Of a stretch of DNA of 64,000 nt, positions 1,427 to 23,492 are shown in pieces. This DNA comes from Xestospongia bergquistia. Its lineage: Eukaryota > Porifera > Demospongiae > Haplosclerida > Petrosiidae. The notes beneath the pieces were generated by a model, which worked only from the letters and a program-made list of their open reading frames with translations, was not told the origin of the DNA and searched no databases. The translations under genes and the position numbers were made by a program. Numbering within the stretch: the stretch's first letter is position 1; each line of letters begins with the position of its first letter. The stretch covers positions 28,072,249 to 28,136,248 of the forward strand of contig OZ014411.1 in NCBI GenBank assembly GCA_963965975.1, written 5' to 3'.

Positions 1427-2068
1427 TGTATATGAAATTTAAAATTTATTTAGTTTGGAAAGACGTTTACTTCCTCGTGCTCTTGCCACTAATAATTTTT
1501 GGAGGTGTGGCTACCAAAATAGCTGCAAATTATTGTTTTTGTTCTGACATCTTTTGAAGTCACGTGACAAATATAAAATTGAAAAATTAATTATCCATTT
1601 TCAGAAATGTTTGAAATTGAAAATACAATCAAATTGCAGTATTTAACTGTTTATTAAAATAATATATTGTTTTATACAAATTTTATTAGCCTTTAAAAAA
1701 ACCATGTTGATAACTATAATATATATCAACTTTAATCCTGAAATGTTAAAGTACAAATTAATTAATGTACCTATTTTATCAACAATTAAAGCATTATAAA
1801 ATGAAAGAACAATTCTGAATTACTTTCTAAACTATGGACCATACATGTACCAGTGAACCAGGACAAAATTTAGCAATGGACCCTCTCTATAGGTCTATGA
1901 CATCATACGACATTACTATTAAAATAAAAGATTACTCAGAATAATACATTGGAATATTACTGTATGTAACAATGTACATGTCCCTCTAATTTGTAGCAAA
2001 ATGAGAGAAGATTAAAAGAGTTACAAGTTAAACAGAATTGTACTTCATTTATTCACTTAATAAATTAG
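1427..2068. other. Intergenic gap between uS12m and EF-Tu genes
   Basis: AT-rich sequence with no coding frame I can support. It should contain the uS12m promoter and the EF-Tu 3' untranslated region. Confidence 0.5.
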
Positions 2069-3861
2069 TTACAATATTTTAGTGACTACACCAGAACCAA
2101 TAGTTTTATGTCCTTCTCTTAAAGTAAATCTTTGTTGCACTTCTAGAGGAATATCTGCTTTTAATGTTAAAGTCATTGGAGTGTCCTCTCCTGGCATCAC
2201 CATCTCTTTATCCTAATTAGATCATAAATGTGGGTGTTGTCAGTTAATAACTTACTTCTGGTAATGACACTACGCAAGTTACATCGGCAGTTCTAATAAA
2301 AAGTTGTGGGGAATAATTACTCATAAATGGAGTATGTCGACCACCTTCTTCTTTCTTTAATACATATACCTATAACAATATTAGTGGGTGTGGTGAGTGG
2401 GTGGAGTTACCTGAGCTTCTAGTTTACTACAAGATATCACTGTATCAGGTTGACATAGTAACATCCCACGTCTTATTTGTTCTCGTTTAATTCCTCTAAG
2501 CAATGCTCCTAACTGATCTCCAGCTTGTCCTTCATCAAGTTCTTTATGAAACATTTCCAACCCTAAAAATTTAATTATGAACAATAATTACAAGGGCAGG
2601 CCTTATTACCTTTAACAGCTGCTTTCATTTTTGTTTTGTGTCCAATAATTTCAACTTCTTCTCCTTTTTTAATAGTCCCTCGTTCAACTCGTCCAGTCAC
2701 AACTGTACCACGACCAGCTATAGAGAACACATCTTCAATAGGAAGTAAGAAGGGCTTTTCAAAATCTCTCTTTGGTAAGGGTATCCACGTATCAACTTGT
2801 TCAAGTAATTTAAGAATAGAGTCAGTACCAACTGTTGGATTTTTGTCCTCTAAAGCACACAGTGCTGATCCAGCAATAATAGGTGTGTTGTCTCCATCAT
2901 AATCATATTCACTAAGAATTTCTCTCATTTCTAATTCCACCTTTATTATTAATAGATAGCATTAATTAATAAAATTATAGGAACTTACCAATTCTAACAT
3001 TTCAGGATCATCAACCATATCTGCTTTGTTAATGAACACAACCACACTTTCAACACCCACCTAATCAAATAATTATAATAATCAATACAATGATGTCATT
3101 GTGACATCACCTGTTTAGCTAATAGTAAGTGCTCTCTTGTTTGAGGCATCTGTCCATCAGTAGCAGCAACAACTAAAATTGCACCATCCATTTGAGCAGC
3201 TCCTACAAATTAAAATTAATTACTATAAATTAAATATTTACTTACCTGTTATCATATTCTTAATGTAATCAGCATGTCCAGGACAATCTACATGAGCATA
3301 ATGACGATTAGGGGTCTCGTATTCCACATGAGCTGTTGCTATGGTGATACCCCTGGCTCTCTCTTCTGGAGCATTGTCAATGTCAGCATAAGATTTAAAA
3401 TTTGCATTGCCTTTTTCTGCTAACACTATATATAAAACAAATTATTTAATTTGTTTGTTAATTAATAGGGTACCTTTTGTAATAGCTGCAGTTAATGTAG
3501 TTTTCCCGTGATCTACATGTCCTATTGTACCAATGTTGACGTGAGGTTTGGTACGAGAAAATGTCAATTTCTCAGCATATTGATAAATGGGTGTGGCTAT
3601 AACATGTTACACATATAATGTAGATGTGGTCATTGTAAATTATACCTGATATATATCGTTTGTCTTGAAAGATGACTGAAGTATTACACTAAATGATGAG
3701 TTATTATATTGGTGGGTGTGGCATATTATGATACCTTGATGCTTGGTTTAACTCCGCCTACAAATTTAAGAGTGGTACCTGTTTTAACAAAAAAATAATG
3801 ACAGATAGTAGTTATTTTTTAAAGGACCTCTTCGAAGAATGGATTTGAGGAAGGTAGCCAT
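2069..3861 (-). CDS. TUFM: Mitochondrial elongation factor Tu, 11 exons
   Basis: GTPase that delivers aminoacyl-tRNA to the mitochondrial ribosome. Exons read on the minus strand: 3828-3861, 3735-3778, 3646-3688, 3474-3596, 3246-3425, 3111-3202, 2989-3060, 2610-2940, 2411-2562, 2256-2369, 2069-2212. They sum to 1329 nt, giving 442 residues plus TAA, the usual family length. The G1 motif [11 protein letters not shown] is in exon 4, the switch I segment [15 protein letters not shown] and the G3 motif [12 protein letters not shown] in exon 5, and the G4 motif NKADMVDD in exon 7. The domain 2 signature [13 protein letters not shown] is in exon 8. About 50 residues precede the GTPase core and look like a targeting presequence plus linker. 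All ten introns are only 41-50 nt, with GT and AG ends. No lesion was seen. Confidence 0.95.
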
Positions 3862-4116
3862 TAATCCACGTGGAAGAAAACGGTAAGTTTACGAAAATGT
3901 AACACGTGTTTATAGAATTTGAATTAATGAAAACGGTGTCCGTTGTATTCCGTATATTACTAATCACTCAGAAACGTAATATGATATGATACCTTTACTG
4001 TATGATATAAAATCATACATTTTTGTTTATTTATAAATATAAATTGCTTGTTATATTGACAATAATGTTGTTATCATTCTTTAATTGTTTCCCACAAATA
4101 CTACAATAAGATATTA
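3862..4116. promoter_or_regulatory. Upstream region of the EF-Tu gene
   Basis: AT-rich sequence directly 5' of the EF-Tu start, so presumably its promoter and 5' untranslated region. No TATA box is obvious. The first 90 bp recur in decayed form near 12940-12975 and 17010-17075, and the stretch from about 3970 to 4116 recurs near 20970-21130, so this region was part of an old duplication unit. Confidence 0.45.
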
Positions 4117-4440
4117 CAAGCTCTTAATTATCTAGAAGGAAAGAAGCTCAAGGGAGTTTTCAAAATGTGAATTATCTAAAAAAAAGAAATGTTATCTAGA
4201 AGGAAAGAAGTCATACAAGCTCAAGGGAGTTTTCAAAATGTCAATTATCTAGAAGGAAAGAAATGTTATCTAGAAGGAAAGAAGTCATACAAACTCAAGG
4301 GAGTTTTCAAAATGTCAATTATCTAGAAGGAAAGAAGTCATACAAACTCAAGGGAGTTTTCAAAATGTCAATTATCTAGAATGTTATCTAGAAGGAAAGA
4401 AGTCATACAAGCTCAAGGGAATTGATAAGCTGTTAATAAT
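4117..4440. repeat. Short tandem repeats with an AGAAGGAAAGAA core
   Basis: About five imperfect copies of a roughly 55-60 bp unit built on 'tatctagaaggaaagaagtc', followed by 'atacaagctcaagggag' and 'ttttcaaaatgtcaatt'. The same core reappears near 13410-13470, 17460-17670, 19770-19800, 20310-20370, 21120-21240 and 21640-21670. It therefore marks each copy of the segmental duplication that carries the MBF2-like genes. Some copies stay open in one frame by chance; I do not regard them as coding. Confidence 0.7.
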
Positions 4441-6300
4441 CCAGAAAAGGAAAAAAATCATTTAGAAACTAACTAACTTGTAGTCACCTGTATATACTAC
4501 TCCTCTATTAAGTAATAAGTGCATCACATTGTGCAGGTCAGTAGTTACTCTATTCTGTATTTTGATAAAACCATGCAGTGTAACTGAAGCAATAAAATAT
4601 CACTATCATTTGGTCTATAAGCTTTCGATTATCCAGAAGGAAAAAAATCTTATCGAGAAGGAAAAATATCATAGAACATCCTATATATATATAGCTGTAT
4701 ACATTCAAACCAATTTGATGATCATAATATTGAGGATAACATACCCTACTTCATAGATATATCAGTGTATGTATGTGTACAGATATTTTTTATACTTCAT
4801 TATCAACGACATACATGAAGTGATGTCACTCTACATGCAATTAAACAAGAACATAGATGTACTACTCTGTATCATACAAGTATTAATATTACGTATACTA
4901 AGATTAGGTAAATAATGTGCTTTTATGATATCAAATTGTAATTGTCATATATTGTAAAGAAATACTGTAAGTATAATGAATTAATGTTATATATTTTTGC
5001 TTGTATCACAGAATATCTGTTCATACAAACAAGTAGACATATTTTGAAGAAGTATGTAGTATAAGAATACAAAATGGAGTTCTCCATGTGTATAATACAA
5101 TAATATAATGTCAGAACATTAACAAATGTCATCATAAATAATGTTATAAGTAAGAAACAATATACAAGTGTGTGATTTATGAATTCATGTTTGAATTGTC
5201 TTCGTTACAGAATCACATCAATTTGATGTAAGCTCAATATTGAGTTACCATAAAGCCAAAAAACTAGTCTAACTCAATATGTGTAGAACCAAATAGAAAC
5301 CAAAAATACTCCTTGTAATTTATATCCATATAACTGATATTATGAGGGAGGGCAGATATTATTACAACTTAACTAATTTAGTTAAAATAGTATCTACTTA
5401 TAATTTCAATTGAAGCCATGATTCAACTACTATAGTAAAGTGGGTATAAAACAATGTGGTTGTAGATGTAACTAGTTGGTTTTATGAATATTGAATTACA
5501 CAAGTATTGGTCTTGTAGCAACTTTGATTTGGACTTACATCATAATGATGTAACTGTAGTAATGAAGACCATAGTTAAAATGACAATATGCTTTTTCAGA
5601 GAATATGTTCACTTTTTATTGTTTAAATATAACAGATGATCCAGAAGAGCATTTTTACTTTGAATTGAACAAAAAAACTAAGTTTCCTGAACATTATATG
5701 AGTGTGTTCCTGCAAGCACATGTGCTTTGCATAAAACAATTGGGATATACTGCAGTGATGAAATAAGAAGGGCACAATATTTGCACAATCATTTTACAAG
5801 ACACATATCATTATATATTATACAAAGTAACCTACACACTTTAATTTCACATTTAATGAAAATGATATAAGCCTATACTAAACTAATAAGTCTTTTCTAT
5901 TTTGTGACAGTACAGACAAGGTTTGGTTCAAGGTAACCTGCCTATTAATGAATGATGCAACAATTGCCATATATAGCAATTGTCACTTTGGTAATTAGTA
6001 ATAAGTGATTATTGCTGTTCATGTTTGTCATGAGCATACCAAGTAAAAAGGAATAATTGTGTAAAGAGATAATACTGATAATATATTACTAAGAGTTGTA
6101 ATATGTAGTATTGTTGATATAGTTTATAACATAGTGATGTGCCTTTAAAAAGGTTTGACATAAAGAGTGTTATATCAGAATTATGAAATTACAATGAATT
6201 TTACCTAGTAACATGACAAATTTTATCATCACCATATTTAACATGACTTCATGTAAGAGGAATCTTAACAGTTGTTCTATCTAGAGCTGACATACAAATA
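4441..6300. repeat. Duplicated non-coding block upstream of the first MBF2-like copy
   Basis: No gene is supported here. Long stretches are clearly homologous to sequence near 20030-20870 and 21520-22260, so this is one arm of a segmental duplication. A MITE of the kind seen at 14882-15324 lies near 5190-5602: it has facing arms around 'tcttcgttacagaatcac' and 'gtaatgaagaccatagtt'. Confidence 0.6.
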
Positions 6301-6319
6301 ATAGAGTTACCCAAAAGTC

Positions 6320-6327
6320 TATATAAA
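6320..6327 (+). promoter_or_regulatory. TATA box of MBF2-like copy 1 (pseudogene)
   Basis: TATATAAA preceded by the conserved block 'aatagagttacccaaaag' and followed by a conserved leader containing 'gaaatctcctatcagatag'. The same arrangement occurs six times in the cluster. Here the leader has lost about 17 bp, including the splice donor that intact copies have just after 'cctgattctaat'. Confidence 0.7.
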
Positions 6328-6637
6328 GCTTGCTACTGTGACTTAAAATCGAATTAACTGTCAGAAAGAAATCTCCTATCAGATAGTGAGTGTTCCTGAT
6401 TAACCACAAATATTTAAATATAAAGTCCTGCGATTAATCTAAAAGGTCTTTGTGGATTTAGTAGTGTCATAGAAATTATATATGTGTTAGTCATATATAA
6501 TTGCATTTCATTATGTTAAAAAGAACTTACTATATATGGTTAAAGGTTAGAAACAGACATTCAATGATAATAACATTGTTAGTTTCTTTCTATTATTTTT
6601 ATGTCTGAAAACTAATTTTTATTTAATAATGTTATAG

Positions 6638-6782
6638 TGAAGAAAATAGCTAAAGTAGTTGCTAGAATGGCTTCATCTCATGATCCCTATACTTTAGAAT
6701 ATCCTAGCCATGGCAAACAAAGTATGGAATCAGTTAACAACTGGAAATGAACACCACAATCTTACTCTTAATGAATAAATAA
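6638..6782 (+). pseudogene. MBF2-like pseudogene, copy 1 (5' part only)
   Basis: An acceptor-like 'gttatag' is followed by an exon start matching the intact copies. The first ATG (at 6668) opens a frame that resembles the N-terminal 30 residues of the intact proteins. After 'ggcaaacaaagtatgg' the frame shifts by one base; the homologous residues (VWNQL, then HHNLTL) continue in another frame and soon reach a TAA. The 3' two thirds of the gene are missing and the sequence runs into the 3' flanking motif 'gaataaataaagag'. The copy at 14374 has the same lesions. Confidence 0.75.
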
Positions 6783-7146
6783 AGAGAATCAATAGATAAA
6801 TGAATTATGGATAGATGAACTTTTTGATATAATAATTGACTACTAAATGATTGTATAAATTAATAAGAGAAACAATCCAGACTCATCTTATCATCACTGT
6901 ATGACTCATTAGTTATTGTCATGATCATTTACAATAAAATAATATGCTTATATCATTGTTATGTTATGATATTATAATACAAATTGTCATGTTTATTTTG
7001 GTTTTATAACACTTTCATCCATATTTCCAAAAAAACATTAACTTTAGCTCTAAAAAGAATATAATTTCCTATCATTTCTTTGCATTAAAATGATTATTCT
7101 GTTTAATTCACTTCTATAGTTACATGTAGACCATTCGTTATTAACA

Positions 7147-8240
7147 CACTGTAAAGAGCATTTTATCATTTTAACTGAGCTCTTTGTTACCACAGTTTCA
7201 TCAATATGATGTAAACCCAATTCTAGGTTGCTACAACACTAGTGTTGTTCCAGTTCTTAGGTATTGAACTAAAAGTAATTTTAGTACCATCATTTTAATT
7301 TTAGCTCCAATTCTAGAACTAGAGCTAGTACTAGAACTAAAATAATTTTTATCTCAGTGCTGGAATTAGAACTGGAACTAAAAATATTTTTTAGGTATTA
7401 CTGGAACTAAAATTTGAGTTTCTTCACAGTTTTCCATAAGTGGAGAAGCATCAAAAGGACAAAAAAATAGATTGATTAACTACAATTTGGAACACGAAAC
7501 ACTGCTAAGAAAAAATAAAAAGTACTTATAACTTGTTTCATAGAAATTGTGATTGGTTATAAATTAATATACGATAAACATTTGAAACTGCACGGCATGG
7601 AACTATGAATTAAGCGGAAAATTTCCAGAACTAAAACTGGAAATAAAATTGTAAAACAAAAATTTCCAGAACTGGAAGTAGAACTATAAAAAGAACAATT
7701 TGGTTCTAGAACTAGAACTGGAACTATAAATGATAAACTTAAGGTTCAGAACTAGAAGTAGAACTATAAAAAGAACAATTTGGTTCTAGAACTAGAACCT
7801 GAACTATAAATGATAAACTTAAGGTTCTAGAACTAGAACTGGAACTATAATTTGATATGAGAACTGGGACAACTCTATACAACACCAATACTATATTGTA
7901 ACTCAATACGTATAAAGACAACTAGTCGTATCTAAAATCAGATTAATATTACACCCACTTTGCTATAGTAATTGAATGATGGCTTCAATTGAAGCTATAA
8001 GCAGATACTATTTTAACTGAACCTAACCCAGTTATTTTAATTGAAATAGTACCTGCCATAGTTTCAATTGTTGGACATAAACTACAAAGACAACTATTTG
8101 GCTTCTAGTTGGTGCTATATGTACTGAGTTAATAAGTTTTGGCTTTGTTGTAATTCAATATTGGGCTCACGTCGTATTGATGAAATTCTAGTAACGAAGA
8201 CAACAGTTGAAATGGCATGTACAAAATGTTATTTTAAGTG
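7147..8240. mobile_element. MITE family B copy, with a hAT-like element nested inside
   Basis: Starts with CACTGTAAAGAGC and ends with the inverted form TTTTAAGTG. The arms face each other (left 'tcatcaatatgatgtaaacc', right 'cgtcgtattgatgaaattc'), so the element can fold back. An uninterrupted copy of 443 bp lies at 14882-15324. This copy is longer only because of the insertion at 7240-7877. It carries no protein and probably depended on a transposase encoded elsewhere. Confidence 0.65.
7240..7877. mobile_element. hAT-like non-autonomous transposon with AGAACT repeats
   Basis: 638-bp insertion flanked by the 8-bp direct repeat TACAACAC (7232-7239 and 7878-7885). The paralogous site at 14967-14974 has one TACAACAC and no insert, so the boundaries are set by an empty site. 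The ends are imperfect terminal inverted repeats: TAGTGTTGTTCCAGTTCT at the left against TAGAGTTGTCCCAGTTCT at the right, read inward. An 8-bp target duplication and TAG-type ends fit hAT elements. The interior is a degenerate array of CTAGAACT and GGAACTA hexamers, with a larger unit duplicated near 7676-7830. No transposase is present. Confidence 0.8.
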
Positions 8241-8439
8241 TAGTTTATGACATAGTTATGTGCTTTATAATACATTTGACATGAAGAGTATTATATCAGA
8301 ACTATCAAATTACAAAAACTTTACCTAGCAACATGAGAAACCTTATCACCACCATAATTAACATACCTTCCCATCAGAGGAATCTTAACAGTTACTCTAT
8401 CTACAACTGACATACTGATAATAGAGTTACCCAAAAGGC

Positions 8440-8447
8440 TATATAAA
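8440..8447 (+). promoter_or_regulatory. TATA box of MBF2-like copy 2 (gene disrupted)
   Basis: TATATAAA in the conserved block 'ttacccaaaaggc'. The leader is followed by 'cctgattctaataaaag' and a GTATGT donor, so the first non-coding exon still looks functional. The paralogy to the copy at 15524 runs to about 8742 and then stops before the coding exon. The missing 3' end turns up at about 11675-11760. Confidence 0.65.
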
Positions 8448-8744
8448 GGTCTCCACTGTGACTTAAAACCGAATTTACTGTCAGAAAGAAATCTCCTATC
8501 AGATAGATAGTGAGTGTTCCTGATTCTAATAAAAGGTATGTTAACCACAAATATTTAAATATAAGTTTCTGCATTTATGTTTTTCATGTAAAAGGTCTAT
8601 GAGTATTTAGTAGTCATAAAAATTATATATATATATATATATATATTAGTCATATAGTTGCATTTCATTATATTTATAATGTTATAAGGACTTAGTATAG
8701 TTAAAGGTTATGAAACAGACATTCAATGATATTAACATTGTTAT

Positions 8745-9560
8745 AACTCTGTTCCAGTTGAGAAGAGCCACCCAAATAACATGTGAATAACTTTGCCGTT
8801 TTATGTGCTATCCACATGGGACTTACACACATTATCGATACAGCTTGCATTATCGATAAAACTCTGTGATGTGGTCGTTTGGACTTGTAAAAAGAAAAGT
8901 ATTTAAAATAGAGCTGGAAAAAGTGATGACGATATTACAAAGAGTGTATAATATTTATTCTCTTTAGTTATTTGCAACATATTATTCAATATAGCTAAAA
9001 GTGCATTGGAAGTCAACTTCTTTCTTCAAAAAAATTGAAATTTGACTTTCTTCATCTTTATCATTTTCTTCACTTTTCTTCTGCTTTCTACCTTTACTTT
9101 TCTACAATGAAGATTTGCAAATATCTTAGTGTAGGCTTAGTGCTTACAATATGGTGCCTTCACTTAGTGCAATATTTTCACAAAGTTTTTCTCTCCTAAA
9201 AGAGAGAAAGCTACAGTAATACTTTTACTCGTTAAAATATCTGGTTATAAGGTACGTCAAACATCTGTACTTTTATGATGATAGAAGTTTAATTTTATAA
9301 CTACATGCTTATATACACAACAAGGCGAACGTTTTCATAGCGTAACACGTGTCAAAACGGGCTTGTATATTCACAAGCGAATTCATAGTGTTAAATAATA
9401 GAACGTTAATGATATCAGTACGTGCATCGTTTCTATCAAGAAACCATAGCGTAACGCTGTTTCGTTGATGTAATTAGTAGAAAAGAAACTACATAGTAAA
9501 AAGATGCTACATTTAGAAATGATTTATAATCATTTATTTTTCTTGATATAGTTATTATAA
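8745..9560. other. Unexplained sequence replacing an MBF2-like coding exon
   Basis: Sequence with no counterpart in the other duplication units. It begins exactly where similarity to the first intron of the intact copy breaks off. No coding frame with family resemblance was seen. Confidence 0.4.
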
Positions 9561-9566
9561 CTAAAT

Positions 9567-10500
9567 TTATTTTTTCATAGCATATATATTTAATGAATAA
9601 ATGTTGTTAGAATTGTCATGATCATAAATTAATGCCAACCTAGGAGTTTCTTCTCTTTCTATTATCTGTAGTTCTGTATTGTCTTTGAAGACACGTGTTT
9701 CAGTACATTCATGTACTACATTGACAATACGATTAGTTCTTGAAGAGAGAACTGTTTCAAGTTTGTCTTCCAATTCCATTAGAGGACAATCAAATTCGTT
9801 TGTCAACTCTTCTCCAGATGGTGAAGTCATCTTCAAGAGACAACAAATTAAACAGAAAGAAAGACCTCTAATGTTGGTTGTCATGTAGCAAGCAATCATG
9901 ATACCATATTGATATGTACCCTATGATAGATAATAATTGAAAAATTGTAATATAAAACTATTCACATACCTCAGATACAACAATTTCTACAGCATATCCT
10001 ACATAAACAAGAGTTTTATGTCGATCAATGACTCCCCATACTGTTTTACAAGTAGTGTCATTTGATATACTTAATGTGTCACTATATTGAAAACTATCTT
10101 GTAGAGTTTTAATATACTGATTACCAGCATTGGGTAACTTGACAATGACATGACCAAACTACTGCAACGGACAGTCTTGAACCTGTGTGCTAATGAATAA
10201 ATTTGAAACTAAGCTAAGATTCAACACTATAACCAGTCCCTGGATTGTAAATTTTTTTGTGTGAATAAAGATTACAAGAGGATACAAAATTTAAAAAATG
10301 CCTGAATAGCTGGGTTGTCCCATAGTTGAACCAAACTTTTTCCACTACTAGTACAATAATTAAAATGATGTATTTTTAACATTATACTTACCATCTTTCA
10401 TCAGTGAAATAACTTCCACTATACACATGTCTGATACTCTCTAATTTGGGAAACCTATTGGCAATATCATGACTTGGAGCTTGTTTATATATGTAGATTG
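9567..10500 (-). CDS. Unrecognised multi-exon gene or gene fragment
   Basis: Three consecutive exon-like segments on the minus strand with plausible splice sites: about 10393-10500 (contains HDIANRFPKLESI and HVYSGSYFTDE, followed by GTAAGT), about 9970-10160 (contains VIVKLPNAGNQYIKTLQDS and TCKTVWGVIDRHKTLVYVGY, followed by GTATGT) and 9567-9922 (ending in TAA). The last exon has a Cys-rich hydrophobic stretch that could be a membrane segment, followed by an acidic, charged tail. I do not recognise the family. The 5' end was not found, so this could be a complete small gene with a missed first exon or a fragment carried in by transposition. It lies inside the interval that interrupts MBF2-like copy 2. 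Confidence 0.35.
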
Positions 10501-10859
10501 ACACACTTTAAACACATATTTCACTTTGTCTTTGCTCACAATGAAACATAACTGACCCATACATATTTGAATAATGTTTGTGCATAGTTCAGAATAGCTA
10601 TTTGGTGTGCACAACTCTTAGTTAGTTATAAAAAACAGCATTTGTGATTTAAAATATATGTGACTTGTGAACACATATTTCACTACATTCATGAAAATTG
10701 AAGCTTTTTAACGAAAAGGAATGCTAGTTTAAAAGTTAGTGAATGGTGTAGGCTGGTTGGACTGTAGGTGTTTATTGTGTTTTATGTGTTACACCAGCCT
10801 TGTGATGAATGAATTATTAAAATGTTTATGCAAGAAAAATTTTAGTCTCTATTGTGACT

Positions 10860-11350
10860 ATATCAAATTTCTGATAAATGATAGTGAAAAGAAGACTAGG
10901 AGCTAGTGCAGGAAAAAGAAGTAAGGCAAGAATAGGACAGCGCAGAAAATGATCAAAGGGCAAGGTATGTTAGATTATGTATTGTTTTGTTTAATTCATT
11001 TTAATGTGATTTAATAGTTAAGTGCGGTAGTTGATGAGCAAATAGAGTTACCTAGTGACTGGATGGAAGTGTCAGATGTCCATTACCAGCAGAAGCGATA
11101 TTGTGTCATCTCATATCAGAAGACTGTTGGGTGTGCACCTTTAGTTGTTACTCGCTCTTTATAGTGTGATACATCTGTAGTTCCTTCACTTGCTTCTTTT
11201 CCTGAAGTGTTGCCAGATTCTGATATTTTTAAATTAATGACTATCATTAATAAATTGGTTAATAAATTTTAAATAACTAGTAAAATTCGCGTGAACGCAA
11301 CATGGCGTCATATCCGGCATAACGAGCATGTGTCCATTCGGTTTCAGCAG
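10860..11350 (+). pseudogene. Possible decayed exons, unknown origin
   Basis: A short basic segment near 10873-10950 is followed by an intron-like stretch. Near 11019-11150 a coding-like frame reads LPSDWMEVSDVHYQQ and then RYCVISYQ before a stop. No family assigned. It could be transposon debris. Weak evidence. Confidence 0.2.
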
Positions 11351-11354
11351 TTTC

Positions 11355-11564
11355 CTATCCCGGTATGATATTTATTATATCTGGTCCATCTGAGGCTTCC
11401 GTAGCTGATGTAGCGTCAAATTGTCTCATGCTGTCAACGATGTGTAACATCATATGGATCTTTGTTTTTTTTAACATTTCAGGAGAATGCTCATTGATAT
11501 GATCTACAAAATCTTGACAAATCTGTCTAAGTTCTTCATCATGAGTTGGATTGTAAAATGGCAA
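11355..11564 (-). pseudogene. Possible transposase fragment
   Basis: A 69-codon frame containing EELRQICQDFVDHINEHSPE and then KIHMMLHIVDSMRQF. The pattern K-x-H-x-x-x-H-x-x-D-x-x-R-x-F resembles a segment in transposases of CACTA/Tnp2-type elements. The frame is too short to be a functional gene and no neighbouring domain is preserved. Tentative. Confidence 0.3.
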
Positions 11565-11669
11565 TATGTCATTTTGAAGATCTAAAATATTATGATAGTT
11601 AAGCTATAGTATTATATCCATTTGTCACCTTTGAAAGAGTAAACCAAATAGCTTGAATACCACTAAAAT

Positions 11670-12010
11670 CATGTGTGGATTTCATCACAAGGTTATCGTT
11701 TACAGAATATGCAAGAAATAATGTTTGTATCTGTTATATGATAATGTAACTTTATTAACTTATGTTATAGGATAACATTAGTAGGTTATAGCTCGTTAAT
11801 TTTTGTTTTTCTTAAAGTTTGATTATTATATATAATTTGATTATTATAAGTAATGTAAATGTAGTATTTTATTTGAATTCAATCTAAAAATTGATCAACA
11901 TCTAATAATCATGACAACAATAGCACCACAAGAATGGACAAATAAAGAGCAATCAATGGATAAATGACATGATAGATGGATGAATAGATAAACTTTTGAT
12001 CTTTATGCTA
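11670..12010 (+). pseudogene. 3' end relic of an MBF2-like gene (copy 2)
   Basis: From about 11680 the sequence matches the last 20 codons, stop and 3' flank of the intact copy at 15893-16261: 'gtggatttcatcacaaggtt' is identical, followed by 'atcgtttac' and a degraded KRKK ending with TAA. The match continues through 'gatggatgaatagataaac' of the 3' flank. Together with the promoter and leader at 8440-8740 this is a gene whose coding part was replaced by about 2.9 kb of other DNA. Confidence 0.75.
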
Positions 12011-12291: not shown

Positions 12292-12879
12292 TTAGTGATG
12301 GTAAACTCTGGCTTTATAGTAGAAAATGCTCTCTAGGATCTGAACTGAAATTTATCTTGAATTTATACCATTTGCTAAACTTATCAAAGTATGCTTTGGT
12401 TATTGCATAATTGATTCAAGAAGTCAATAGACCGTATCAAATTTAGGTAACTCTATTTACAATGAGATTTACCGGTAGTCAATGTTAATTGCAATGAAAA
12501 TACACTATATTTGTTTAATTAGAATTACGGTATCCGTAGGCGAAACCGAACTATTATCAGAGTAGGTAAGTCCGGATGATACCAAATATGTCACTGACTT
12601 AAAAACATCTATTGCTGTTTCTCTTGTCATAACGACAGTTTATTCCACAATTTGTTTTCTTCCTTCAGGTTACCATTTACAATAAGTTAGTTTAAAGGCC
12701 TGTATATACAACAAAAAACAAAGAACATCATTTCGTGTCTTACCAGTAAACAATGTGGCAGAGACTATTATAATTGTTACAGCATTCACTGGCAGAATGT
12801 GAATATCATTACTCATTGTCTGATGTGTTTAACGATAACACATCCACACATGAACATACACATATGAAGTAAGCAAACA

Positions 12880-12975
12880 TGTTAATTTATTCAGTTAATA
12901 AATTAGTTACAAAATTTTAGCAACTACAAAGTCATTAATCCATGTAGAAGAAATGGAAATTTATGAACATAAAAG
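12880..12975 (-). pseudogene. EF-Tu gene ghost: fused 3' and 5' ends
   Basis: 'ttaataaattagttacaa' and the following bases match the EF-Tu stop region at 2056-2090. After 'caactacaaagtc' the sequence jumps to 'attaatccatgtagaagaaa', which matches the EF-Tu start region at about 3859-3880. Everything between (about 1.77 kb of gene) is missing. This is a remnant of a duplicated EF-Tu locus with its interior deleted. Confidence 0.7.
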
Positions 12976-12979
12976 ATAT

Positions 12980-14090
12980 TGTGGATGGTGCCTGGTGTAA
13001 CAATATAGATTAGACTTGGTTCAACGTAACTTACACAATCTAATTACTGCATGTCTTAGTAACAGTCATTTTATGAACATACATAGTAATCACTGGTATA
13101 AGATAAGACAATGTCATTTAACATTTAAAGATAGGTGTACCTTGAGTAGATTAATTTAAATCTTGTCATATTATAATGACATATATATATATATATATAT
13201 ACTAATGAATGTTGTAAATTGATCAAACCATGTAGCAACACAATATTCCTAACATGTTTTAAATTCTATAAGATGTTGATCCAGAATGAAAAATATTATA
13301 GAATATTCTTGTTGTATGTATTTTAAACCAATTTGATGATCACCATAGTAAGCATAAAAGTTACTGAAACAATGCAATTGATGTCAAAGGAAATTCCAAA
13401 GATGAATTATCGAGGAGGAATGAAATCTTATCCAGAAGGAAAGAAATATAATCCAGGAAGGAAAGAAGTCATAGAAGACCAAAGTTGTAAGAAAGTAATC
13501 ATAGTTATATGTATTCAAACCAATTTGAAGATACAATATTAAAGATAATGTAATTATATAATCTCAGAGCAATGCTATTCATTATACAAAATAACCTGTA
13601 CACTGTAATGTCACTTGAAAATAATATAAGTCCATACTAAAGTAATAAGTCTTTGCTATTTTGTAACAATACAGATTAGACTTGGTTCAACGTAACTTAT
13701 ACAATCTAATTACTGTCTTAGTAACAGTCATTGTATGAACATACATAGTAATCACTGGTATAAGATAAGACAATGTCACTTAACATTTAAAGATAGCTAG
13801 CTACCTTCAGAGTGACATTCACTTCATATCAGTGTTTTATACATTTTATAATATATTACTGATATATTACTAAGAGTTGTAATATGTAGTATTGTTGATA
13901 TAGTTTATGACATAGTGATGTACCTTTAAAAAAGGTTTGACATAAAGAGTACTATATCAGACTATCAAATTACAAGGAATTTACCTAGTAACATGACAAA
14001 TTTTATCATCAACATATTTAACATGACTTCATCTAAGAGGAATCTTAACAGTTGTTCTATCTACAACTGACATACTAATAATAGAGTTAC
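12980..14090. repeat. Segmental duplication block, non-coding
   Basis: Contains the AGAAGGAAAGAA-type repeat near 13410-13470 and a long tract homologous to 5800-6310 and 18960-19500. A frame at 13333-13542 is the repeat itself, not a gene. Sequence near 13015-13100 is repeated at 13678-13770, so a smaller local duplication is nested here. A (TA)n run lies at about 13181-13201. Confidence 0.55.
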
Positions 14091-14099
14091 CCAAAAGTC

Positions 14100-14107
14100 T
14101 ATATAAA
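14100..14107 (+). promoter_or_regulatory. TATA box of MBF2-like copy 3 (pseudogene)
   Basis: TATATAAA with the same flanking block as the other copies. As at 6320, the leader lacks the 17 bp that contain the splice donor. Confidence 0.7.
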
Positions 14108-14373
14108 GCTTGCTATTGTGACTTAAAATTGAATTAACTATCAGAAAGAAATCTCCTATCAGATAGTGAGTGTTCTTGATTAACCACAAATATTTAAATA
14201 TAAGTTCCTGCAATTAATCTAAAAGGTCTATGTGGATTTAGTAGTGTCATAAAAATTATAGAAATAGTCATAGAAAATATATATGAGAAACAGACATTCA
14301 ATGATATTAACATTGTTAGTTTCTTTTATTAATTTTATGTCTGAAAAATAATATTCTTTTAATAATGTTATAG

Positions 14374-14518
14374 TGAAGAAAATAGCTAAAGTTGTTGCTG
14401 GAATGGCTTCATCTCATGATCCCTATACTTTAGAATATCCTAGCCATGGCAAACAAAGTATGGAATCAGTTAACGACTGGAAATGAACACCACAATCTTA
14501 CTCTTAATGAATAAATAA
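14374..14518 (+). pseudogene. MBF2-like pseudogene, copy 3 (5' part only)
   Basis: Near-identical to copy 1 at 6638-6782, including the one-base frame change around 'aacaaagtatggaatcag', the early stop and the missing 3' part. The shared lesions show that copies 1 and 3 descend from one already broken gene. Confidence 0.75.
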
Positions 14519-14881
14519 AGAGAATCAATAGATAAATGAATTATGGATAGGTAAACTTTTTGATATAATAATTGACTAACAAATGATTGTATAAATTAAT
14601 AAGAGAGACAATCGAGACTCATCTTATCATCACTGTATGACTCATTAGTTATTGTCATAATCATTCACAGTAAAATAATATGCTTATATCATTGTTATGT
14701 TATGCTATTATACTACAGATTTTCATGTTTATTTTGGATTTATAACACATCCATCCATATTTCCAAAAAACATTAACTTTAGCTCTAAAAAGAATATAAT
14801 CTCCTATCACCTCTTTGCATTAAAATGATAATTCAGTTTAATTCACTTCTATAGTTACATGTAGACCATTCGTTATTAACA

Positions 14882-15324
14882 CACTGTAAAAAGCATTTTA
14901 TTATTTTAACTGAGGTCTTTGTTACCACAGTTTCATCAATATGATGTAAACCCAATTCTAAGTTGCTACAACACCAATACTATTGTAACTCAATATGTAT
15001 AAAGACAACTAGTTGTATCTAAAACCATATTAATATTACACCCACTTTGCTATAGTAATTGAATGATGGCTTCAATTGAAGCTATAAGCAGATACTATTT
15101 CAACTGAACCTAGTTAGGCTGAAATAGTACCTGCCTCTCCTCCATAGTTTGAATTGTTGGACATAAACTACAAAGACAACTATTTGGCTTCTAGTTGGCG
15201 CTATACTACTGAGTTAATCAGTTTAGCTTAGTTGTAATTCAATATTGGGCTCACGTCGTATTGATGAAATTCTAGTAACGAAGACAACAGTTGAAATGAC
15301 ATGTACAAAATGTTATTTTAAGTG
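14882..15324. mobile_element. MITE family B, uninterrupted copy
   Basis: 443-bp fold-back element starting CACTGTAAAAAGC and ending TTTTAAGTG, with long imperfect inverted arms. It is the empty-site reference for the hAT-like insertion at 7240-7877. Its terminal CACTGTAAAAA is shared with MITE family A (19505, 21265 and 37101), so the two families probably used related transposases. Confidence 0.65.
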
Positions 15325-15523
15325 TAGTTTATGACATAGTGATGTGCTTTATAATATGTTTGACATGAAGAGTATTATATCAGAACTATCAAATTACAAG
15401 AAATTTACCTAGCAACATGTCAACTTATATCACCACCATATTCAACATAACTACCTGTCAGAGGAAACCTAACAATTGTTCTATCTACAACCGACATACT
15501 AATAATAGAGTTATCCAAAATGC

Positions 15524-15614
15524 TATATAAAGGTCTCCACTGTGGCTTAAAATAGAATTAACTGTCAGAAGAAATCTCCTATCAGGTAGTGAGTGTTCCT
15601 GATTCTAATCAAAG
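15524..15614 (+). promoter_or_regulatory. Promoter and 5' leader exon of the intact MBF2-like gene
   Basis: TATATAAA at 15524-15531 in the conserved block, then a leader ending 'gattctaatcaaag' and the strong donor GTAAGT at 15615. A 248-nt intron follows, with its acceptor TTATAG just before 15863. The leader has stops in the coding frame and no ATG in it, so it appears to be a non-coding first exon. Confidence 0.65.
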
Positions 15615-15892
15615 GTAAGTTAACCACAAACATTTAAATATAAAGTTCATGCATTTATGTATTTCAGTTGAAAGGTCTATGTGTATTTAGTATAGTTTCA
15701 TAAAATTAAATAGTAGTTATATAATGGTATTTCATTATTTTATAATGTTAAGGACATTGTATTGTTAAAAGTTTAGGAAACAGATATTCAATGCAATTGA
15801 TATTGTTAAATTTTTCTATTAATTTTACATTTTAAAACTAATTTCCATTTAATAATATTATAGTGAAGAAACTAGCTAAAGTAGTTGCAGGA

Positions 15893-16261
15893 ATGGCTGA
15901 TCACTATAGTTTAGAAATTCCTAGCATAGCAAAGGACAAATGGAATGGGATAATATTTGAAAAAGGTCGTGACAATCTTACTATTGGTCCACCAAATGCC
16001 AAAGATGTAGTCCTCTACTCACACCACGAACGTAAACAAAATGGTATTGGTTGGGTCTCTCATACATTCTCCTATACATGTAAACCTGGAGAAGAAATCA
16101 CTGCAGTTCTGGCCTATGATATGTGGGATGATGGTACTGGAGGAAATCCTAAATTAAAGAGTGGAGGAGTTGGCGAAAAAGAAGTGTCAATTGAAGTTAC
16201 CTCTCAATTGATGCGTGGATTTCATCACAAGGTTATCGTTTACGGAAAACGCAAGAAGTAA
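15893..16261 (+). CDS. MBF2-like small protein, intact copy
   Basis: Frame of 122 codons from the first ATG after the acceptor at 15862 (MADHYSLEIP) to TAA. The frame is also open back to the acceptor but only with a GTG, so the ATG is preferred. I read the C-terminal two thirds as MBF2-like: LTIGPPNAKDVVLYS, then a beta-rich middle, then EEITAVLAYD, a GTGG turn, SGGVGEKEVSIEVTSQ and RGFHHKVIVYGKR. Insect MBF2 proteins show the same order (G-x-R-x-x-D ... ITxIxxxD ... NGxGG ... GGxG ... SQRGxGINF ... IYG). Insect members usually have a signal peptide; I see none here. Function is unknown; in insects the family includes a transcription co-activator and secreted salivary proteins. The family assignment is from memory of the pattern, not a search. 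Confidence 0.6.
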   Translation: MADHYSLEIPSIAKDKWNGIIFEKGRDNLTIGPPNAKDVVLYSHHERKQNGIGWVSHTFSYTCKPGEEITAVLAYDMWDDGTGGNPKLKSGGVGEKEVSIEVTSQLMRGFHHKVIVYGKRKK

Positions 16262-16264
16262 TGC

Positions 16265-16955
16265 TTGTGTCTGTTATACAGTTATGTAGCTTCATTGTTG
16301 GACATTTTAGTAAACATTGTTAGGTCAAAGCTGTATTAATATAATTTTTGTTCATAATGTTTTGATTATTATATATATATATGTAGTATTATATTCAAAT
16401 TCAATCTAAAAATTGATCAAAATCTACTAATCATGACAACAATAACACCACAAGAATGGATAAATAAAGAACAATCAATGGATAAATGACATGATAGATG
16501 GATGAATAGATAAACTTTTGATCTTGTGATTGATGAACTATGAATAATTGTGTAAATTAATGTAAAAGACAATTGTTAGTCATCTTACATTTTATATCAG
16601 TCAATAGTTATTGTTATAAAAGATCGAAACAACCTTGCTCATTTCAACCAATTATCATCTGTTGAGGACTCTATTCCAGCTGTTTTATTGGTTGTTGCTA
16701 TGGACTCATTAGATGTATTTTGATTGGTTGTTGTATTGTATATATAACTTGGTTTTGTTTATTGATTTTATTATTGGTTGTCCAGACAAACATAAAGTCT
16801 GAAATTTCCTATCATAGTTATTATTATAATCAATTACAGTACTGTAAAATGTTTTATATCCAATTGTATTGTGCTATTATCTTAGGAATCTTCATAATTA
16901 TTTCGGATTTTAACACTTTCACTGATGTTTCCAAAAAACTCACAAATCATGAGCA
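16265..16955. other. 3' flank of the MBF2-like gene
   Basis: Contains likely polyadenylation motifs (AATAAA within 'ggataaataaagaac' near 16455). A TG-rich frame at 16720-16965 is not supported as coding. The segment ends where the second EF-Tu ghost begins. Confidence 0.45.
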
Positions 16956-17075
16956 AACATGTTAATTTATTCAGTTAATAAGTAAGTTTGCAAAATTTTA
17001 GCAACAACATATTCCACGTAGAAGAAACGTTAAGGTTACGAGCATGATGTAGAATTTCAATTAACGAAAATGACG
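16956..17075 (-). pseudogene. Second EF-Tu gene ghost
   Basis: 'gttaatttattcagttaata' and the following bases match the EF-Tu stop region, and from 'ccacgtagaagaaacg' through 'gtagaatttcaattaacg' the sequence matches the EF-Tu start and upstream region at about 3865-3935. The gene interior is gone. The breakpoint differs slightly from the ghost at 12880, so either the copies decayed independently or they were remodelled after duplication. Confidence 0.65.
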
Positions 17076-18947: not shown

Positions 18948-18959
18948 TTAGTAGATCCA

Positions 18960-19500
18960 AATACATACTATGATATCCATTATACAAAATAACCTGCACA
19001 CTGTAATGATACAAAAAATACAAGTCCATATTAAAGTAATAAGTCTTTGCTATTAATTTTATAACAATACAGATTAGATTTGGTTCAATGTAACTTACAC
19101 AATATAGTTACTGTCTTAATAACAGTCATTGAGTGTACATAAATAGTAACCACAGCATGGTATAAGATAAGGTAATGTCACTTAACATTTAAAGATAGCT
19201 ACCTTCAGAGTGACATTCACTTCATATCAGTGATGTATACATTATATAATATATTACTGATATATTACTAAGAGTTGTAATATGTAGTATTGTTGATATA
19301 GTTTATGACATAGTGATGTGTATTATAATAAGTTTTGACATAAAGACTATTATATCTTAACTACCAAATTACAGGAAATTTACCTAGCAACATGTCAACT
19401 ATTATCACCACCATATTTAACGTAACTACCTGTCAGAGGAAACCTAACAGTTGCTCTATCTACAACTGACATACAAATAATAGAGTTACCCAAAACTCTA
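18960..19500. repeat. Duplication block with a truncated MBF2-like promoter
   Basis: Homologous to 13580-14105. It ends in the promoter block 'aatagagttacccaaaa', with the TATA region cut off at about 19504 by the MITE that follows. No leader or coding exon follows, so this copy is dead. Confidence 0.6.
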
Positions 19501-19504
19501 TATA

Positions 19505-19741: not shown

Positions 19742-19744
19742 GTA

Positions 19745-21260
19745 TCACAAGCTCAAGGTAATGTACGAGCTATCAATTATCTAGAAGGAAAGAAATCTTA
19801 CAAGCTGTCAATTGTTCAGATGAAAAGAAATCATTTAGAATTAACTAACTCAAAGTACATGTGGGAAATATTTAAAGAAAGAAGTCAATATCATTATTGT
19901 CAATATAACAAAGAAGTTATCTTTAAAATAATGAATTAGGTATTTATAATTTATATCATACAATAAAGGTATAACATCATAGTGAGTGCCTTGAGTGGAT
20001 TAATCTAAATCATATCCTATTATGGTCATGTATATATACTACTCCTCTATTAAGTATTAATATGCACATTGTGCAGGTCAATACTTAACTCTATGTTGTA
20101 TTTTGATGAAACCATGCAATGTAACGGAAGCAATAACATATCACTGACGTGTCTTCTCTAAGCTGTCAATTATCCAGTAGTAAAAATCATAGTACAATAT
20201 ACTAGTATATATTCAATCTAATTTGATGATCACAATGTTAAACATAACTGTAACTAAAGTAATTCAATAAATCTCAATGGATTTTCCAGTTAAGCTGTCG
20301 ATTATCAAGAAAGAATGATATCTTATCCAGAAGGAAAAAAGTCATATCAAGAAGGAAAGATATCATAGAGCATCCTAGTTGTATGTATTCTAACCAATTA
20401 GATTATCTCAATATTAAATATGACCCTACTTCATAGATATATCAATGTATGTATGTGTACAGATATCTTTTATTACTTCATTATCAATGACATTCATGAA
20501 GTGATGACACTCAACATACATTAACAATAACATAATTATGTGTAGTACTCTGTATCAAACAAGCATTTTGTATACTAAGATTAGAAAGGTACATAATATT
20601 TTTTATGACTTTATAATGTAATTGTCATATATTGTAAAGAAATACTGTAAGTATAATGAATTAATGTTATATATTTTTGCTTGTATTGTAGAATATCTGT
20701 TCATACAAACAAGTAGATGACATATACAAAATGCACTTCTCCATGTGTATAATATAATAATATAATATCAGAACATTGACAAATGTCATGATAAATTATC
20801 TTATAAGTAAGAAGCAGTATACAAGTGTATGATTTATGAATTCATATATGAATATGTTCACTTTTTACTGTTAAAATATAACAGATTATCCAAAAGAGCA
20901 TCATTTAGAAACTAACTATTGAGCTTGTATGATTTATTTCCTTCTAGAAATTTAACAATCATTCATTATGATATTATACCTTTACTGTATATATGATCTA
21001 AAAATCATAGACGCTTGAATATATATAAATATTAATTACTTATTATTTTGACAATAATAATATTGCCTTTATTTCTTTGACTGTTTCTACTAGTACTACA
21101 AAAAAGTAATTTAAAGCACTCAATTATCTAGAAGGAAAGAAATGTTATCCAGAAGGAAAGAAACACACAAGCTCAAGGAAATGTACAAGCTATTTATTAT
21201 CTAGAAGGAAAGAAATCATACAAGCTCAAAGGAATTTACAAACTACAATATACTCACATG
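19745..21260. repeat. Segmental duplication block, non-coding
   Basis: Homologous to 4117-5160, with AGAAGGAAAGAA repeats at 19770-19800, 20310-20370 and 21120-21240. The stretch 20930-21130 matches the EF-Tu upstream region at 3970-4116. No gene supported. Confidence 0.5.
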
Positions 21261-21264
21261 CCAC

Positions 21265-21493
21265 TGTAAAAATGAATATGTCATTTTAACAACTAATTTG
21301 TAGTTTACATGGAAGGATTACTATGGAATGTAATTTATGTGAATTACTCATTATATAATTTATTGCTATGTACAAGTACAACATGCCAACAAATTTACAT
21401 AGTGAGTAATTCTCAAGAATTCTAAATTCCATAGTAATCCATCCATGTAAACTACAAATTAGTTGTTAAAATGACATATTAATTTTTACAGTG
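21265..21493. mobile_element. MITE family A, copy 2
   Basis: Same fold-back element as at 19505, in the opposite orientation of its asymmetric centre: the 'ttgctatgtacaagtacaac' segment appears on the other side. Ends CACTGTAAAAATGAA and TTTTTACAGTG. Confidence 0.75.
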
Positions 21494-21499
21494 TGTTTC

Positions 21500-22780
21500 C
21501 TGTCATTTATCCAGAAGAAGAAATTATAGGACAATATAGTAGTATATGTTCAAACCAATTTGATGATCACAAATATATGTTACTGAACTAATGCAATAAA
21601 TCTCAATGGATTTTCAAATTAAGCTGTCAATTATCAAGAAGGATGATATCTTATTGAGAAGGAAAAAAATTCTAGAACATCCTAGTTGTATGTATTCCAA
21701 GTTATTTGATTATCTCAATAATAAGTATGACCCTACTTTATAGATATATCAATGTATGTATGTGTACAGATATCTTTATATATACTTCATTATCAATAAC
21801 ATACATGAAGTGATGACACTCAACATACAAGTAACAATAACATATGTGTAGTACTCTGTATCATACAAGTCTTTTGTATACTAAGATTAGAAAGGTACAT
21901 AATGTATTGTTTTTATGACTTTATAATATAATTATCATATATTGTAAAGAAATACTGGAAGTATAATGATTTAATGCTATAAATCTTTGCTTGTATCACA
22001 GAATATCTGTTCATACAAACAAGTAGATATATTTTGAAGAATAATGAAGTATATAAGAATACAAATGCACTTCTCCATGTGTATAATATAATTATATAAT
22101 GTCAGAACATTAACAAATGTCATGATAAATTATCTTATAAGTAAGAAGCAGTATACAAGTGTGTGATTTATTAATTCATATGTAAATATGCTCACTTTTT
22201 ACTGTTAAAATATAACAGATAATCCAGAAGAGCATTTTTACTTTGAATTGGACAATAAAACAGTCATTATGAGAGAATATATCCAAGCAATGAAATATGA
22301 AGCACACAATATTTGGACTATATATCATTCTACAAGACACATACCATTAACTATTATAAAAATAAGCTACACGCTGAAATTCGCTTTTAAATTAAAAAGG
22401 CTTTCTATTTTGTAACAATACAGATAACATTTAGTTCAATGTCTATCAATGAATGTCCCAGCAATTGTCACATTGGTAATTAGTAATAAGTGAATATTGC
22501 TGTTCATTTTTTGTCATCAACATACCAAGTAAAAAGAAAATGTATAAGTTAATAATACTGGTAATATATTACTAAGAGTTGTAATATGTAGTATTGTTGA
22601 TATAATAGTTTATGACATATTAAAGTACCTTATAATAAGTTTGGTATGAAGAGTATTATATCGTAACTATCAAATTACAAAGAATCTACCTAGCAACATG
22701 TCAATATTTAGCATAACTACTGTCTGAAGAAGCCTAACAATTGATCTATTTTACAACTGACATACTAATAATAGAGTTAC
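21500..22780. repeat. Segmental duplication block upstream of the second intact gene
   Basis: Homologous to 4600-6310. It leads directly into the promoter at 22790. No gene supported. Confidence 0.5.
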
Positions 22781-23096: not shown

Positions 23097-23492
23097 ATGG
23101 CTCAAATAGTTGGTGCTATAGCTGCAATTGATGATATTGTAGAAATTCCTGGCAAGATGAAGGAGGTATGGAATCAGATATCAGCTGGACATGGACGCCA
23201 CAGTCTTACCCTTGGTGAACCAAATGACAAAGATATAGTCCTCTACCAAGAAGAGCTTCGTAAAGGCTATGAATATTTTGGTAAGGTCTCTCATACATTC
23301 TCCTATAAAATCAAATCTGGAGAAGAAATCACTGCAGTTCTAGCTTATGATGAATGGAGTGATGATACTGGAGGAAATCCTGAGAGAAAGAGTGGAGGAG
23401 TTGGGGAAAAAGAAGTGTCCATTGAAGTTACCTCTCAATACATGCGTGGATTTCACTTCAAGTTTATCGTTTACGGAAAACGCCAAGAGTAA
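23097..23492 (+). CDS. MBF2-like small protein, second intact copy
   Basis: 131-residue frame from ATG to TAA, starting eight bases after an acceptor. It keeps the same architecture as the protein at 15893: HSLTLGEPNDKDIVLY, a beta-rich middle, GEEITAVLAYD, TGGN, SGGVGEKEVSIEVTSQ and RGFHFKFIVYGKR. The 50 C-terminal residues are far better conserved between the two copies than the N-terminal 40, and the two N-termini can barely be aligned, so the C-terminal beta domain is the functional core. There is no clear signal peptide; MAQIVGAIAAI is only mildly hydrophobic. Function is unknown and the MBF2 assignment is by pattern recognition. Confidence 0.6.
   Translation: MAQIVGAIAAIDDIVEIPGKMKEVWNQISAGHGRHSLTLGEPNDKDIVLYQEELRKGYEYFGKVSHTFSYKIKSGEEITAVLAYDEWSDDTGGNPERKSGGVGEKEVSIEVTSQYMRGFHFKFIVYGKRQE

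Follow-up and report, generated by a model that had tools for sequence, protein, structure and literature searches.

Sequence relics of a duplicated EF-Tu gene within a local tandem array of the sponge Xestospongia bergquistia

The closest described counterparts of the genes at the locus reported here are the mitochondrial elongation factor Tu (TUFM) and the MBF2 family (PF15868), the latter being familiar from silkworm multiprotein bridging factor 2. The DNA analysed, referred to as the window, is a stretch of 64,000 nucleotides from X. bergquistia, which holds an EF-Tu gene, a tandem array and, within this array, two short EF-Tu-derived sequences that are called ghosts (Table 1). For the predicted protein of the EF-Tu gene, the second phmmer match is 1xb2, ‘Elongation factor Tu, mitochondrial’ (4.7e-174; residues 50–439 aligned), whereas its best match in the PDB, 6gfu (2.5e-177; residues 50–442 aligned), bears the label ‘Elongation Factor Tu’ alone. 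The EF-Tu likeness extends across the whole core of the predicted protein, with about 49 residues ahead of this core; PF00009 is matched by the gene and PF03144 is matched in one exon. A mitochondrial role may be proposed for the gene at 3861–2069. In contrast to TUFM, the ghosts encode nothing of the protein except the last six residues.

The two open MBF2-like genes match nearly the full length of the PF15868 profile and pass its curated cut-off of 25 bits (58.2 and 59.1 bits), with dN about equal to dS between them (NG86). A difference from the known family is that these are the only two MBF2 matches in the 146-Mb sponge genome, both at the locus.

A local tandem array of EF-Tu, repeats and MBF2-like copies

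The dot plot of the first 24 kb against itself, which had been proposed as a check in the preliminary description, gave 96 direct and 16 inverted matches (positions 1–24000, E ≤ 1e-5), and none in any of 10 second-order Markov sequences; the remaining two 20-kb parts of the window gave 4 and 4 self-matches. Between 3901 and 24000 the self-matches cover 14,240 of 20,100 bases; within 1–3900 only 47 bases are covered, and 2044–2090 is seen in the self-alignment. The array is composed of local units that start in the EF-Tu 3' flank (at about 2035–2044) and run through repeats to MBF2-like copies, units 2 and 3 opening with an EF-Tu cut down to its two ends. More AGAAGGAAAGAA copies lie at about 13.4, 17.4–17.7, 19.8 and 21.1–21.2 kb, the exact motif ATCTAGAAGGAAAGAA occurs at 11 sites in the genome, all inside the array (reversed control, 0), and the spacer (3850–5196) as a query gave 15 matches in the genome, again all inside the array. 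No tRNA was found in the window. In the 146-Mb genome, matches to the unit parts are confined to the locus, save for six EF-Tu tail fragments that sit on other contigs without the remainder of the unit; the earlier proposal that EF-Tu, the AGAAGGAAAGAA repeats and an MBF2-like gene multiplied together as a local tandem unit is thus well supported.

Table 1. Coordinates of the features of the EF-Tu locus and its tandem array (positions in the window)
Feature	Position	Strand	Description
Open EF-Tu gene	2069..3861	-	Hand-placed GT-AG gene model, open frame; 11 predicted exons, 442 aa
EF-Tu predicted exons 1-6	3861-3828, 3778-3735, 3688-3646, 3596-3474, 3425-3246, 3202-3111	-	
EF-Tu predicted exons 7-11	3060-2989, 2940-2610, 2562-2411, 2369-2256, 2212-2069	-	
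EF-Tu stop-codon end kept by both ghosts (left part)	2044..2090	+	Self-alignment, local alignment
EF-Tu start-codon region with 5' flank, retained by ghosts	3856..3933	+	Alignment reaches 3898 in ghost 1 and 3933 in ghost 2
AGAAGGAAAGAA repeat cluster adjoining intact EF-Tu	4126..4460	+	Self-alignment
Truncated MBF2-like copy plus promoter, unit 1	5602..7239	+	Part 6069-7239 is 90% like 13853-14974
Unit 1 second MBF2-like copy	7878..12003	+	Promoter part 7878-8743, 3' end 11653-12003
Ghost 1	12872..12975	+	EF-Tu tail 12882-12928 joined to start region 12930-12970
Truncated MBF2-like copy plus promoter, unit 2	13572..14974	+	
Open MBF2-like gene, unit 2	15863..16261	+	PF15868 1.2e-15; promoter about 15325-15530
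Ghost 2	16952..17075	+	Left junction as ghost 1; EF-Tu tail 16962-17009, start region 17010-17070
Unit 3 MBF2-like promoter stub	18970..19504	+	Ends beside MITE-like element 19506-19742; self-alignment
Two more copies of repeat-bearing spacer	19746..22235	+	About 80-82% to parts of 4483-5196
Open MBF2-like gene, right array end	23097..23492	+	PF15868 5.9e-16

The identity between unit parts is unequal (about 65–94% by part), and the spacer to the right of EF-Tu is nearer to 20.3–22.2 kb than to unit 2, so that the array is mosaic; in addition, a 110–130-bp block is inverted in some units. A simple whole-unit history was found to be inadequate, as the nearest units differ between the spacer and the MBF2-like parts. 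The truncated MBF2-like copies common to units 1 and 2 are without a body, with the promoter and 3' flank kept, and are sisters in the trees (support 100/98 and 100/99), while support in the promoter trees is weak outside this pair. In the second copy of unit 1, the middle (8744–11652) has been swapped for dispersed repeats. The earlier statement that only the small gene was retained holds for the two MBF2-like genes that are open, but not for the two truncated copies, the copy with a repeat-filled middle and the promoter stub.

The two ghosts of the EF-Tu gene

Each ghost consists of the last EF-Tu codons and the 3' flank joined to the start-codon region and the 5' flank, with about 1.77 kb absent, and both EF-Tu ends stand in the correct order and orientation; beyond the ghosts, the array continues as spacer and MBF2-like copies. 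This fusion of the stop region to the start region with loss of the interior had been described for both sites, with local alignment against shuffled controls as the proposed check. When each alignment was tested against 1000 dinucleotide shuffles of both sequences, the EF-Tu 3' end (2044–2090) scored 69 against ghost 1 (12882–12928; shuffle maximum 34) and 44 against ghost 2 (16962–17009; shuffle maximum 31), and the EF-Tu 5' end scored 37 against ghost 1 (3856–3898 with 12930–12970), barely above the shuffle maximum of 33, and 48 against ghost 2 (3862–3933 with 17010–17070; shuffle maximum 29). In all four tests the real score was attained by none of the 1000 shuffles. The real-sequence control comprised 4,886 overlapping 150-bp windows on both strands, minus those starting at about 1.5–4.3 kb; the top places for the 3' end were ghost 1 (69) and ghost 2 (44), followed by the reverse strand of ghost 1 (35), and those for the 5' end were ghost 2 (48) and ghost 1 (37), followed by a score of 26. 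The fusion is confirmed at both sites by the shuffle tests and this control. The homology of the ghosts to a functional-looking parent gene exceeds chance, and the ghosts are, as judged from sequence, relics of a duplicated EF-Tu gene.

By eye, V-V-A-K-I-L-stop is still legible in ghost 1 when the frame of the EF-Tu tail is followed, so that the coding gene is its source. The matches to the putative 5' flank reach 3898 in ghost 1 and 3933 in ghost 2, about 40–70 bases before the ATG. At E ≤ 10 the window outside the gene gave no EF-Tu coding match, coding capacity having been lost in the ghosts, and no third ghost was found in the window, the next places scoring 36 (at 11226, with ghost 1 as query) and 32 (at 13976, with ghost 2) versus 98 for ghost to ghost. 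In the genome, the ghost 1 query gave three places, namely ghost 1 itself, ghost 2 (2.1e-16) and EF-Tu, and with EF-Tu DNA as the query (E ≤ 1e-5) ghost 1 was reported and ghost 2 was not.

Three other identities were rejected. A transposon or dispersed repeat as the source of the ghosts disagrees with the three genome places of ghost 1 and with the confinement of the 15 spacer matches to the array; a processed (retro) pseudogene disagrees with the presence of a putative 5' flank, the absence of the exon interior and, by eye, the lack of poly-T at the left edges; and an older ghost-like sequence into which EF-Tu had been inserted disagrees with the last EF-Tu codons standing in frame in ghost 1 and with the outside fragments, which side with EF-Tu.

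One emptying or several

The EF-Tu match ends at base 2090 in both ghosts and resumes at positions within 6 bases of each other, and the ten bases to the left of 2044 are identical between the ghosts and different in EF-Tu. At five positions in the tail the ghosts agree against EF-Tu; at four of these, all six outside fragments, which are one family rather than six independent witnesses, share the EF-Tu state, so that the ghost state is derived, and the fifth is ambiguous. The alanine codon of V-V-A-K-I-L was rejected as ancestral and is derived, as all six fragments carry the EF-Tu state. Over the 91 shared columns the ghosts are barely grouped: the ghosts go together in 11 columns, EF-Tu and ghost 1 in 10, and EF-Tu and ghost 2 in six, with identities of 81% (ghost 1 and ghost 2), 80% (EF-Tu and ghost 1) and 76% (EF-Tu and ghost 2). 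The ghosts are thereby slightly more diverged than several neighbouring parts of units 1 and 2 (85–94%). A 10-column gap common to both 5' parts in the MAFFT alignment carries little weight, because in ghost 1 the significant alignment stops short of this gap, at 12970.

Because the edge at 2090 is common, the right edge is nearly so and four derived changes are found in both ghosts, a single emptying is likelier, and an EF-Tu copy was probably emptied once, after which the emptied unit was duplicated again. The earlier wording, in which copies in the plural were hollowed out, is a poor fit to this edge and to the derived state of four of the five tail changes. We infer that a complete second EF-Tu may once have been present. 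The whole history, which we consider fairly probable, would comprise duplication of the EF-Tu unit, one emptying and re-duplication of the ghost: EF-Tu would have been duplicated in tandem together with the repeats and the MBF2-like gene, a single deletion of about 1.77 kb would have removed the extra EF-Tu body between the start codon and a point about six codons short of the stop, and a second duplication of MBF2-like parts along with the ghost would have yielded two ghosts sharing a single junction. The spare EF-Tu would have been dispensable and its loss therefore unopposed, and the ghosts would need no present function. As a two-step history this is incomplete, because the array is mosaic and contains the block that is inverted in some units.

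Alternatively, the ghost may have been hollow from the outset, through template switching from tail to start in the first duplication, and have been duplicated later. Replication-based rearrangements yield arrays with inverted and rearranged pieces, such as are seen here, and the one clean junction, the identical left edge and the absence of an EF-Tu coding remnant elsewhere in the window also agree with this origin; however, it requires a jump spanning exactly the gene body, a direct mark of which is not recognisable after about 20% divergence, and we regard it as unlikely. That two complete extra EF-Tu copies were each hollowed independently, as first worded, is very improbable: the weak grouping over all 91 columns and the difference of a few bases at the right junction edge would favour it, but the identical left edge at 2090 and the four polarised changes common to the ghosts speak against it. 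Similarly doubtful is a broader process in which the locus would repeatedly empty genes by replication, keeping the ends and skipping the bodies, which would cover the truncated MBF2-like copies as well as the ghosts and would take the six tail fragments on other contigs as a sign of repeated copying. Gene conversion between units, by which one junction spread to another EF-Tu (two whole copies, one deletion), is in keeping with the mosaic units and their unequal divergence (about 65–94% identity by part), but lacks a demonstrated conversion tract and has a very slight probability. Finally, chance likeness of AT-rich sequence, or dispersed-repeat copies, is extremely improbable: although the matches are short and AT-rich and ghost 1 barely exceeds its shuffles in the 5' part, chance is ruled out by the shuffles and the 4,886-window control, and dispersal by the three places only in 146 Mb.

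Comparison with duplicated pseudogenes

In conclusion, the ghosts and the array are a case of ordinary duplication and gene decay that is unusually legible. The general picture of gene duplication and loss is left unchanged by the EF-Tu ghosts; they provide a readable case in which the spare copy of a conserved gene was lost after tandem duplication while the neighbouring sequence was kept, and in which two scars of 100 bp are an aid in tracing the limits of old duplications and the order in which they arose. As in duplicated (non-processed) pseudogenes and relics, the ghosts adjoin their parent, carry its putative 5' flank without the coding body and lie within a tandem array holding other decayed copies. 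They differ in that two ends alone are kept and in that one empty scar was probably re-duplicated, which is an aid to ordering the steps.

EF-Tu ends fused at two places in the array

The array to the right of EF-Tu contains two 'ghosts', in which the stop-codon end of EF-Tu is joined to its start-codon region. The EF-Tu tail (2044-2090) aligns to 12882-12928 in ghost 1 and to 16962-17009 in ghost 2, and is followed immediately in both by the match to the start region (12930-12970 and 17010-17070, respectively). The preliminary description had read these places as fused EF-Tu ends, and the controls bear this out: none of 1000 shuffles reached the score of any of the four alignments; the closest case was the start-region match in ghost 1, which scored 37 where the best shuffle scored 33. 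When the 64 kb was scanned in 4,886 overlapping windows, covering both strands outside the EF-Tu gene region, the ghosts came out as the top two places for each EF-Tu end; we regard this real-sequence control as stronger than the shuffle test. Across the 146-Mb genome (21 contigs, probably of an animal to judge by gene content; the window spans 28,072,249-28,136,248 on a contig of 28,166,986 bases), ghost 1 as query found three places at E<=10, namely ghost 1, ghost 2 and EF-Tu; EF-Tu DNA at E<=1e-5 recovered ghost 1 and missed ghost 2.

Self-comparison of 1-24 kb gave 96 direct and 16 inverted matches, versus none in ten Markov control sequences, and within 3901-24000 the matches cover 14,240 of 20,100 bases. 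Of the first 3900 bases, only the 47 at 2044-2090 have a match in the rest of 1-24 kb at E<=1e-5, so the duplicated unit seems to begin in the EF-Tu 3' flank, with the S12-like gene outside it. The exact motif ATCTAGAAGGAAAGAA has 11 sites genome-wide, all inside the array (its reversed control has 0 in the genome), and the spacer 3850-5196 as genome query gave 15 matches, all within this array. PF15868 at E<=0.1 matched genome-wide only the coding parts of the two open MBF2-like genes, and a protein search of the genome likewise gave two matches, both in the array. That motif and MBF2 matches lie solely here supports the proposed tandem unit of EF-Tu, repeats and MBF2-like gene. Close to where the spacer copies start lies a 110-130-base block (3980-4082, 17089-17200, 19854-19988, 20960-21090), which is inverted in two of the four copies.

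Features of the locus and related copies (C, contig and L, locus of the same genome)
Feature	Position	Strand	Remarks
Ribosomal protein S12-like gene	1016-1426	minus	PF00164; left of EF-Tu
EF-Tu gene	3861-2069	minus	11 exons, 442 residues, stop-free (GT-AG gene model, hand-placed)
Array 1: repeat-bearing spacer	3980-5196
Array 2: truncated MBF2-like copy	5602-7239
Array 3: second MBF2-like copy	7878-8743 + 11653-12003		middle replaced
Array 4: ghost 1, then spacer	12872-12975 (ghost)
Array 5: truncated MBF2-like copy	13572-14974
Array 6: open MBF2-like gene	14967-16939		coding 15863-16261
Array 7: ghost 2, then spacer	16952-17075 (ghost)
Array 8: promoter stub	18970-19504
Array 9: two further spacer copies	19746-22235
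Array 10 (last): open MBF2-like gene	22552-23810		coding 23097-23492
MITE-like element copies	19506-19742, 21262-21493, 37102-37334, L030 4332-4550
EF-Tu tail fragments	C2:13457170-13458025, C2:13462712-13462940, C2:14166809-14167561, C2:14471420-14472151, C9:3576442-3577205, C9:4084006-4084687		EF-Tu protein and DNA searches (L036-L041 set)

Origin of the ghosts

The preliminary description had several extra EF-Tu copies hollowed out; the loss of the EF-Tu body is supported, whereas a plurality of emptyings is unlikely, since the shared junction and shared derived tail changes favour a single emptied ancestor of both ghosts. The EF-Tu match ends at 2090 in both, resuming at 3856 in ghost 1 and 3862 in ghost 2, and the ten bases left of 2044 are common to both and different in EF-Tu. 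At five tail positions the ghosts agree against EF-Tu; with six tail fragments of EF-Tu from other parts of the genome as outgroup, the EF-Tu state is found in all six at four positions, the fifth being ambiguous. A 10-column gap placed by MAFFT in both 5' parts counts little, lying for ghost 1 outside the significant alignment. Against a single origin, the 91 shared columns divide almost evenly: 11 pair the two ghosts, 10 pair EF-Tu with ghost 1 and 6 pair it with ghost 2. In units 1 and 2 the truncated MBF2-like copies clearly group as sisters (support 100/98 and 100/99), and the spacer copies pair otherwise; a second duplication, extending from one MBF2-like copy across the ghost to within the following spacer, would produce this discordance.

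The unit may once have held a whole second EF-Tu, or it may have been born hollow through a template jump. Other readings were rejected: an older site entered by EF-Tu, because ghost 1 spells (by eye) V-V-A-K-I-L-stop in the EF-Tu frame; a retrocopy, the ghosts having neither exon interior nor poly-T (by eye) and matching EF-Tu sequence before its start codon; and a repeat family, the genome holding three places for the ghost 1 query.

MBF2-like genes and mobile elements

The statement that only the small gene was retained is partly right, because two MBF2-like genes are open, but the remaining copies survive as truncated or replaced versions or as promoter remnants. With dN 0.30 and dS 0.26 over 129 codons (NG86), the open pair gives no indication of whole-gene purifying selection; the C-terminal half of the proteins appears conserved (by eye). 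The MBF2 family is known mainly from arthropods; its presence here may deserve notice if the host is no arthropod.

Right of ghost 2, at 17868-18948, lies the remnant of a DNA transposon, in which a THAP domain and a helix-turn-helix of transposase type (PF05485, PF13613) are bounded by 75-base inverted ends 96% alike. A palindromic MITE-like element of ~235 bases has CACTGTAAAA ends (by eye); its two array copies, oppositely oriented, are 96.6% alike, and the MBF2-like promoter stub ends where one of them starts. A ~450-base dispersed repeat occurs at 14888-15334, 5196-5596 and 7878-8213, and of at least 91 matches on many contigs (40 of 380 candidates scored) most are to this repeat. The replaced middle of the MBF2-like copy (8744-11652) is a dispersed-repeat patchwork, whose best copies, on other contigs, are 92-95% alike. 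Right of the array, 25055-31905 recurs in inverted orientation at C1:326000-333744 (L028), towards the opposite end of the contig that carries the window; the two are ~92% alike across 4.4 kb, and the copy adjoins an MBF2-like promoter piece.

EF-Tu, its fragments and its neighbour

Among solved structures, the EF-Tu model is closest to 6gfu ('Elongation Factor Tu', 2.5e-177), followed by 1xb2 ('Elongation factor Tu, mitochondrial', 4.7e-174). The introns and ~49 additional N-terminal residues are consistent with a nuclear gene encoding a mitochondrial protein. The six tail fragments (68-80% alike in DNA) all carry the flank left of EF-Tu, which traces them by sequence to the main locus and not to the ghosts. 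Five, compared with 9-9.5 kb of surroundings, have long similar stretches in common (one pair ~9.2 kb at 96%); the sixth (2.5 kb taken) entered the tail alignment only. Together they appear to stem from a single captured gene fragment that was spread afterwards. A weak additional match to the EF-Tu query, on C7, involves intergenic sequence only.

The S12-like gene and EF-Tu adjoin on one strand. The bacterial str operon includes both genes; here, however, their order is reversed and ~640 bases separate them, so that the adjacency is probably a coincidence.

In conclusion, the locus is a tandem duplication with loss of the redundant gene body, the scar of which was probably duplicated again. 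Events of this kind are already known, and this locus adds another example.
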